From contig QWPT01000001.1 in NCBI GenBank assembly GCA_003671075.1, positions 1 to 64,000 on the forward strand: a DNA stretch of 64,000 nucleotides, written 5' to 3'. The DNA comes from Planctomycetota bacterium. GTDB lineage: Bacteria > Planctomycetota > Phycisphaerae > Phycisphaerales > SM1A02. A program made the translations under genes and the position numbers. The notes under the pieces are model-generated. The model was not told the DNA's origin. It did no database searches and was given only the letters and a program-made list of their open reading frames with translations. The first letter of the stretch is position 1; each line of letters opens with the position of its first letter. This document shows, piece by piece, positions 16,081-18,159 of this stretch.

Positions 16081-16128
16081 TGTGAGAGTGCGTGTGAGAG
16101 AGCATGTGAGAGAGCATGTGAGAGCTAC
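16081..16128. repeat. 12-bp tandem repeat, about 4 units (TGTGAGAGTGCG / TGTGAGAGAGCA x2 / TGTGAGAGCTACA), non-coding
   Basis: Read directly; lies upstream of the RuvB-like gene. Confidence 0.85.
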
Positions 16129-16239
16129 ATGTGAAGCGTTGAATGTTGCGTCTGTGCCTGATCTGGAGCGGAGTGGTCAGTGCTTGAGCAATGCACAACA
16201 AACGAACACGGCGAGTCGGGCCGTAGAGGAGATGGAGCC

Positions 16240-17418
16240 ATGCCAGACGATCCAACGAACGAAGATGCGCGAACGGAAAAGTCGGAGCGGGACGATGCCG
16301 TCAAGGCACCAGAAGTCACCACCAACAAGCCAGAAGATGGGAAGAAGGACCGGGAGTCGACGAAGGTCCCTCGCAAGATGAAAAAGCGAGAGGCCGCGAA
16401 GCTTGCTGACTCCACCAACATTGATTTCGCGGTTCCGACGCTGCGGCATTTCACTACCTACACCCGCATCACCCAAACCCTCGAGGGCTATCTGCTGGCG
16501 GCCATGCGCGAGAACCGCCGACTCGACCACATGTTGATCCACGGACGCCATGGGTCGGGAACCTCGACGCTCGCCCGCGCGCTGATTCGAGACTACGCGC
16601 CATCGCGTGTCGAAGAGTTCGATGCGCAAGGAGGCGTCTGCGCAACAAAGCTCAAGCGTGCGCTTGTAAGGGCAAACCGTCGAGGCGTGGTGTTCATCCG
16701 CCACATTGAACTGCTTGACGGGCAGTGCGCTCAGCTGGTTGCGAACTACATGGCGGGTAAGGCCATCGAACGCGAAGAACGCGCGGGGACTCAGCAGTCG
16801 ATGCGAGCGCCTTGGGAAAGCGCGATCGACAAAGAGATCGCCGAATCAGCTCGCATCCACGATGACGCAAAAACTCCATCAACAAATGCCGCCACCAGCA
16901 TCATGCCGGGTGGAACCATCATCGCAACCGCGCTGATGCCGAACCGACTTTCGTACTTGGTACGGACCAACATCCAGCAGTTGATCCACCTGCGCAACGA
17001 TCCGAAGGCGCTTCGCTGTGCAATGGTCCGCGTGTTGCGCCAACACGCACTCATGCTTGACACGAGTTGCTTCCAGCGCGTCGAGCGTGTGCTTTCGACG
17101 CTCATCGATGGCACGGAACAACTCGCGCGCGCTGTATTGGCGCGAGCGGGAATCGAATGTGTTTCAAAGATCGACGACGACCTGATGAAGTCGATCATTG
17201 AAGAAGACCTGCCAAATCGGATTCCTGACGGGCAATACGCTGCATCGCTGCGTGAGCATCTTGGAGGCCGAAAGATTCTGTCGGCAACGGTAGAAGAGGT
17301 CGAACGCATCGCGAACGAAACGCTTTGGGGGACGGTGGCCGCACAGGCGTCCATCTCAACCATGATTCGTGAGAACCGTGCTCGAAAGCGTACGGAGCAC
17401 CCGTCGGTTCCGTTTTGA
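16240..17418 (+). CDS. RuvB-like AAA+ protein with degenerate nucleotide-binding motifs (predicted inactive paralogue)
   Basis: LDHMLIHGRHGSGTSTLARAL aligns with RuvB LDHxLLxGPPGLGKTTLAxxx; VVFIRHIELLD aligns with VLFIDEIHRL; IDGTEQLARAVLARA aligns with SRGTPRIAxRLxxR. Start taken at MPDDPTNED with AGGAGA upstream. Confidence 0.7.
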   Translation: MPDDPTNEDARTEKSERDDAVKAPEVTTNKPEDGKKDRESTKVPRKMKKREAAKLADSTNIDFAVPTLRHFTTYTRITQTLEGYLLAAMRENRRLDHMLIHGRHGSGTSTLARALIRDYAPSRVEEFDAQGGVCATKLKRALVRANRRGVVFIRHIELLDGQCAQLVANYMAGKAIEREERAGTQQSMRAPWESAIDKEIAESARIHDDAKTPSTNAATSIMPGGTIIATALMPNRLSYLVRTNIQQLIHLRNDPKALRCAMVRVLRQHALMLDTSCFQRVERVLSTLIDGTEQLARAVLARAGIECVSKIDDDLMKSIIEEDLPNRIPDGQYAASLREHLGGRKILSATVEEVERIANETLWGTVAAQASISTMIRENRARKRTEHPSVPF

Positions 17419-17423
17419 ACGCT

Positions 17424-18041
17424 TCAATCAGATGATGCGTAGCCGATCGCTGGTTGATCCTCAGGATTGGTGTAGGTGGAAGCGCTTGCGCCTGTCGTAG
17501 AGCAGGTGGAATCGGTGGCGGAATAGATGGCGGAGTTCATGGCAGAGTTCGTGGCAGAGTTCGTGGCAGAGTTCATGGCGGAATCTTCGGTCGAAGTTCG
17601 GGTGGTAGCCGGGCAGTAAGACTCTGGAAATGGCACGGTGCATGCACGCATTTGCTCGCTACGACTTTCGTTGGTCTCGACATCGCACTCCACAATCCAA
17701 AGCGCTTCGTGTTCCATGAGTGCTGACCAATCGCCGACGAGCTCATCGAGCTCGTCGGCTTTCATTTGCTGCGCTGGCCACGCGCCGAAGCGCTTGACCA
17801 CACGATCGCGCAGTTCGGGGTCGCGCGCACATTCCCGAGTTGCAACAGCTGCCAACCGCAGTTCGGCGAGGTCGCGGGTTGCGTGTGCAGTAAAGTCGAT
17901 TCCGAAACGGTGTTGGTACGCGGCCACGAACACCGTCGCAATCGTTGCCTCTCGACGCGCGACCGCTGCGGCCACGGCGTCGGCCATGTCCTGATAGAGC
18001 GTGTTCGCACACTCCTTATCCCTCTTGGTAAAGACGATCAT
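17424..18041 (-). CDS. Hypothetical protein with C-terminal 4-aa repeats (SAMNSATNSATNSAMNSAIYSATDS)
   Basis: ORF with polypurine SD-like sequence (AAAAAAAGGGGG on the coding strand) upstream of MIVFTKRDKE; no domain recognised. Confidence 0.6.
   Translation of the reverse strand: MIVFTKRDKECANTLYQDMADAVAAAVARREATIATVFVAAYQHRFGIDFTAHATRDLAELRLAAVATRECARDPELRDRVVKRFGAWPAQQMKADELDELVGDWSALMEHEALWIVECDVETNESRSEQMRACTVPFPESYCPATTRTSTEDSAMNSATNSATNSAMNSAIYSATDSTCSTTGASASTYTNPEDQPAIGYASSD
17509..17580. repeat. 12-bp tandem repeat, 6 imperfect units (GAGTTCGTGGCA type) inside the 17424..18041 CDS
   Basis: Read directly. Confidence 0.85.
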
Positions 18042-18159
18042 TCTTGTTCCCCCTTTTTTTAACACCAATGTTTTGACGCCCACTTGTCCTGCGGCGTCAC
18101 GCGAGGCTAACCGCGTCTCGATCAGCTTCCTGATTTCACAACATTCTTACGCGCGAATT

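Follow-up and report, generated by a model that had tools for sequence, protein, structure and literature searches.

A RuvB-derived pseudo-AAA+ protein and its relatives in one planctomycete family

Introduction

Bacteria usually carry one copy of the gene for RuvB, a recombination motor. Pseudo-AAA+ proteins are already known as a kind, and clamp loaders contain catalytically inactive AAA+ subunits in which the fold is kept and catalysis is lost; in these loaders degenerate subunits mix into the complex. An inactive site of the T4 clamp loader is discussed in PMC3331839. Trans-acting residues, the RuvA hairpin and the DNA wing are functional parts of RuvB (PMC9477746, PMC10272136): the presensor-1 β-hairpin binds RuvA (PMC9477746), and the C-terminal winged helix contacts DNA through its arginine wing (PMC10272136). 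Nothing relevant on a RuvB paralogue in planctomycetes or on a RuvB pseudoenzyme was found in the open-access papers searched.

Here we describe a RuvB-derived protein encoded in the window, i.e. the whole analysed stretch of 64,000 nucleotides from a planctomycete genome (G000), together with its orthologues in the genus (group A) and more distant relatives in the same planctomycete family.

Results and Discussion

Gene structure and RuvB ancestry

The reading frame is open from its ATG start without any disruption, and the GGAG of the Shine-Dalgarno-like sequence lies 8 nt from the ATG (Table 1). The preliminary description of the locus, which had noted an intact frame with a clear ribosome binding site, was correct in this respect. 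The N-terminal tail varies in length from 52 to 222 aa among the orthologues.

Table 1. Features of the gene encoding the RuvB-derived protein and of its surroundings (window positions)
Feature	Position	Strand	Remark
Imperfect tandem repeat, intergenic	16081..16130		gtgagagagcat-like, just upstream of the gene
Shine-Dalgarno-like AGAGGAG	16225..16231	+	read directly
CDS, RuvB-derived pseudo-AAA+ protein, 392 aa	16240..17418	+	member of genus-wide orthologous group A
N-terminal tail, residues 1-61	16240..16422	+	predicted disordered, pLDDT < 50 (AlphaFold2)
Walker A remnant GRHGSGTST, residues 102-110	16543..16569	+	Lys position is T108
Walker B remnant VVFIRHIE, residues 150-157	16687..16710	+	R154, H155 and I156 invariant in 12/12 orthologues
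Variable insert, residues 172-225	16753..16914	+	replaces RuvB trans-acting signature and presensor-1 β-hairpin
Arginine-finger position (E. coli R174)	16969..16971	+	Asn244 here
Sensor-2 region DGTEQ, residues 290-294	17107..17121	+	D290 invariant, no Arg
C-terminal all-helical segment, residues 330-385	17227..17394	+	sits where RuvB has the winged helix (model and alignment)
Convergent gene, 219-aa protein	17424..18083	-	no Pfam match

RuvB_N (PF05496) is the sole Pfam family matched by all 12 members of group A (best E-value 7.7e-8). The window protein itself scores 21.6 bits against this model, which is below the cut-off of 27, and 18.6 bits against NCBIfam ruvB (TIGR00635 / PRK00080), below the cut-off of 299.05; RuvB is still the top-ranking family in both collections. 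A PDB profile search with the orthologue profile returned RuvB first (E-value 1.6e-9) with the P-loop and small domains aligned, and in hhalign comparisons the probability amounted to 97.8% for RuvB, against 67% for RarA and 5% for DnaX of the own genome.

The AlphaFold2 model of the window protein has a mean pLDDT of 76.9, the core lying mostly at ~90 and the N-terminal 61 residues being disordered. In a Foldseek search with this model the first 39 matches were all RuvB (best E-value 2.4e-12). Their TM-scores of 0.45 by query and 0.55 by target and the rmsd of ~8 Å indicate that the domain fold predicted is common to both proteins, though not every detail. The preliminary description had called the protein RuvB-like and named a predicted fold other than that of RuvB or AAA+ proteins as evidence to the contrary; the predicted fold is AAA+ and RuvB-like, and RuvB is the nearest protein by profile, by PDB sequence and by predicted fold. 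The window protein shares with RuvB the order of the elements, the large and small AAA+ ATPase domains and the predicted fold.

Loss of the ATP site and of other RuvB elements

In contrast to RuvB, the window protein lacks the Walker A lysine, the Walker B acids, sensor 2, the cis-arginine, the MED signature, the RuvA hairpin region and the DNA wing. At the Walker A lysine position all 12 orthologues in the alignment carry Thr or Ser. R154 and H155 occupy the positions of RuvB D113 and E114 (E. coli numbering), and Arg-His-Ile is invariant where RuvB has Asp-Glu-Ile (12/12 orthologues), at a mean column identity of 40%. The sensor-2 arginine is likewise missing from every orthologue, the column being occupied by Gly, Cys, Ala, Val and others.

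The replacements of the Walker A lysine by threonine and of the Walker B Asp-Glu by Arg-His in VVFIRHIELL had already been proposed in the preliminary description and are borne out, and the orthologues in the genus share these ablations (12/12) instead of carrying intact motifs. Its third claim, the loss of the sensor-2 arginine, holds insofar as there is no arginine at this position, but the register in which GTPR had been matched to GTEQ is two residues off. A profile alignment to Thermus RuvB and MAFFT both align the GTPR arginine to G291 within I-D-G-T-E-Q and not to Q294, so that the resemblance between GTPR and GTEQ is a coincidence of register.

The N-terminal cis-arginine of RuvB is gone (IRPR is AVPT in the window protein), and according to the alignment the trans-acting MED signature is missing. 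The insert that replaces the presensor-1 β-hairpin comprises ~50 aa and is variable and partly helical, and no hairpin strands appear in the AlphaFold2 model. The arginine finger is still Arg in 8/12 orthologues; the window protein has Asn instead, and the orthologues closest to it have also lost the finger. At the C-terminus the AlphaFold2 model of the window protein predicts no wing strands of the winged helix, and no motif resembling RTPRGR of the DNA-contacting wing was detected there in the alignment. The C-terminal ETGWG segment, in turn, is deeply conserved among the orthologues.

Canonical RuvB and RuvA

A canonical ruvB, which the preliminary description had suggested looking for, is present elsewhere in the genome (contig C23); it encodes 345 aa with GPPGLGKTT, IDEIH and GTPR all intact. 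Pfam RuvA_N had no match in the window genome (97.6% complete), while the control search matched in 10 bacterial genomes. Either RuvA was missed in the assembly, or it has diverged strongly, or the organism really lacks it.

Conservation and synteny within the genus

A search of 61 related genomes found orthologues only within the genus, and a single-protein search likewise made the gene look restricted to it. In the genus-wide profile search a syntenic orthologue was detected in 12 of the 16 genomes, among them eight of the nine that are at least 90% complete. The order of YceI upstream, the gene itself and a convergent gene of unknown function is found at all 12 orthologue loci, with Lgt and TrpD downstream of the convergent gene where the contigs reach far enough. 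Judging from these sequences, inheritance of the gene within the genus is vertical and syntenic. The YceI gene lies ~600 bp from the gene in the window, and no conserved operon partner on the same strand was found. The convergent 219-aa gene is kept at 10/12 orthologue loci and in the genomes G013, G008 and G010. In the window its product ends in NSAT/NSAM-like repeats, which stem from a short DNA tandem repeat.

For the closest orthologue pair dN was 0.010 and dS 0.080 (dN/dS ~0.13). Between the window genome and G012 the group A protein shares 60% identity and RuvB 89%; the corresponding values for G009 are 45% and 82%. The group A protein thus diverges much faster than RuvB.

In G013, which is 96% complete and keeps a canonical RuvB-type match, YceI and the convergent gene are ~210 bp apart with no remnant of the gene between them. 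Such a clean absence from a well-assembled genome indicates that the gene is dispensable. Contig ends interrupt the locus in G003, G008 and G010, and these assemblies therefore do not show the orthologue to be absent.

A family of RuvB-derived proteins

Profile searches extended the set to four further genera of this planctomycete family (g2, g18, g40 and g44), i.e. in five genera of one family when the window genus is counted; this wider set was reached only by profile search and not by single-protein search. Several paralogues per genome, located at unrelated loci, were found in genus g40. Groups B to E (from g40, g18, g44 and g2) are homologous to group A (hhalign probability 97-99) and, like it, RuvB-derived and devoid of the Walker B acids, which were kept in none of the relatives read.

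The groups differ in the remaining residues of the ATP site. In group A the Walker A lysine, the Walker B acids and the sensor-2 arginine are all gone, and group D (g2, g44) has Arg in place of the P-loop lysine. Unlike the window protein, group C (14 sequences, alignment A3) keeps the P-loop lysine within DS[SG]K[RQ] and has Arg in the place of sensor 2, both without exception (K130 and R296), but again no Walker B acids, and part of it bears a C-terminal membrane segment. The C-terminal hydrophobic segment, which resembles a membrane anchor, was seen in five members from g40 and g18 (L164, L167, L171, L172 and L173) and suggests that at least some of these proteins act at the membrane.

The comparison of group A with A3 by hhalign gave a probability of 99.2 (E-value 1.1e-19, 258 columns), and that of RuvB with A3 a probability of 97.5. 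The structure model of A3 is predicted to be RuvB-like, its first 35 Foldseek matches being RuvB. In a maximum-likelihood tree all 33 pseudo proteins fall on one side of a branch with 100/99 support, apart from RuvB, RarA and DnaX, although long-branch attraction may affect their joining.

The loci of the paralogues differ from that in the window, the neighbours being prfC, a WYL regulator, a helicase and a membrane protein. Three short RuvB-like proteins of 234 aa from g40 (L043, L044 and L045) have the P-loop GPDDCGK or GPEDSGK and a replaced Walker B motif, e.g. VRRVEE; they belong to a conserved three-gene set following the genes of a WYL-domain regulator and of a single-pass membrane protein. 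Two group C genes from two g40 genomes (L091 and L092) are convergent with a gene resembling that of peptide chain release factor 3 (prfC).

Among 393 genomes sampled across the phylum no relative was recognised outside the family, no match there having an E-value better than 7e-22, a range in which the profile also takes in canonical RuvB (own ruvB 8e-18). Since only five candidates per genome were scored in this sample and the matches outside the family were not read singly, rare members may be missed. No relatives were detected in viral contigs with the A1 and A3 profiles. Named records of the same group are mostly freshwater planctomycete MAGs; one of them, ZH-13MAY13-plancto44, is mentioned by Andrei et al. 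2019, who describe a freshwater Phycisphaerae clade (CL500-3; PMC6461901). This set of RuvB look-alikes is previously undescribed and, as far as sampled, confined to one planctomycete family; it is RuvB-derived, and neither Pfam nor NCBIfam holds a model dedicated to it.

Possible function and alternative explanations

The motifs and the model together point to an AAA+ fold with conserved loss of the catalytic residues, maintained under purifying selection, and the residues present suggest that ATPase activity has been lost. We consider it about evenly probable (roughly 0.5) that the window protein is a RuvB-derived pseudo-AAA+ protein under selection which can go through no ATP cycle and, outside the RuvAB motor, acts as an ATP-independent scaffold or adaptor. 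The AAA+ fold would now serve independently of nucleotides. Conserved surfaces, for instance the C-terminal helices that carry ETGWG, may be where a partner binds, the disordered N-terminal tail possibly acting as a tether. Its role would be accessory and lineage-specific, outside RuvAB branch migration. The loss of the RuvA hairpin region, the DNA wing and the trans-acting residues argues against membership in the RuvB motor and for such a repurposed scaffold. It counts against this explanation that the arginine-finger Arg is kept in 8/12 orthologues, although a pure scaffold would not need it, and that the gene stands alone at its locus with no operon partner on the same strand.

The persistence of this Arg, together with RuvB ancestry and a canonical ruvB in the same genome, would fit an ATPase-dead subunit which mixes into or regulates RuvB hexamers and lends its finger to an active neighbour. 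This seems quite unlikely since the window protein has Asn at the finger position and its closest relatives have lost the finger too, since the MED signature, the RuvA-binding hairpin and the DNA wing are gone, and since group A evolves far faster than RuvB and is absent from G013, a genome with a canonical RuvB-type match. Partnership with RuvB hexamers, as considered in the preliminary description, consequently finds little favour. Its view of a retained ATPase-dead RuvB paralogue is supported by the ablations in all 12 orthologues and the separate intact ruvB, and the lineage-specific repurposing that it also considered fits better and would extend to the family-wide set of paralogues. The strict conservation of R154, H155 and I156, taken together with the P-loop lysine and sensor-2-position Arg of the sister group C, could also indicate that the proteins bind nucleotide in an unusual way, R154 and H155 standing in for Walker B, and serve as a switch that senses nucleotide but does not hydrolyse it. 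Since group A lacks the lysine, the Mg-coordinating acids, the cis-Arg and the sensor-2 Arg all together, we regard this as unlikely.

An origin from a clamp-loader-type subunit (δ- or δ′-like) or another AAA+ family could be read into the clamp-loader chains that rank below RuvB in the Foldseek list and into some matches of paralogues to phage families of clamp-loader type. RuvB, however, is ahead of all others in every search, and clamp-loader and RarA candidates were weaker in both Foldseek and hhalign, so that this origin is highly improbable and was rejected. Inactive clamp-loader subunits illustrate a common principle only, as the window protein is not homologous to them at the subfamily level and, in contrast to the heteromeric clamp loaders, shows no sign of a heteromeric partner. 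A part in a defence or mobile-element system spread by paralogy, for which the several paralogues at unrelated loci of g40 genomes and the rapid divergence might speak, is equally hard to accept in view of the vertical synteny in the window genus and the lack of relatives in viral contigs. The window protein had no PADLOC match, only one paralogue weakly matching IetA over the P-loop region (E-value 8e-4), and a phage origin was likewise rejected, the window protein having no PHROG match. The fast divergence and the clean absence from G013 would be expected of a decayed ruvB copy on its way out. With the frame open in 12 species-level genomes, a dN/dS of ~0.13 in the closest pair, an invariant new motif and the deeply conserved ETGWG segment, such a pseudogene is largely refuted and has next to no probability left, in accordance with the preliminary description, which had not regarded the gene as a decaying pseudogene.

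Conclusions

Beyond the window protein, it is possible, and we propose this only tentatively, that one planctomycete family turned RuvB, by stepwise loss of the ATP site, into a diversified set of proteins that have no catalytic activity and in part are anchored in the membrane, and that these act outside recombination, e.g. as membrane- or nucleoid-associated scaffolds. Automated annotation would call such proteins RuvB or AAA+ ATPases, which would be misleading. The clade keeps a working RuvB alongside paralogues at different stages of ATP-site loss, and this set of paralogues may serve as a natural series for studying the conversion of a motor fold to non-motor use.
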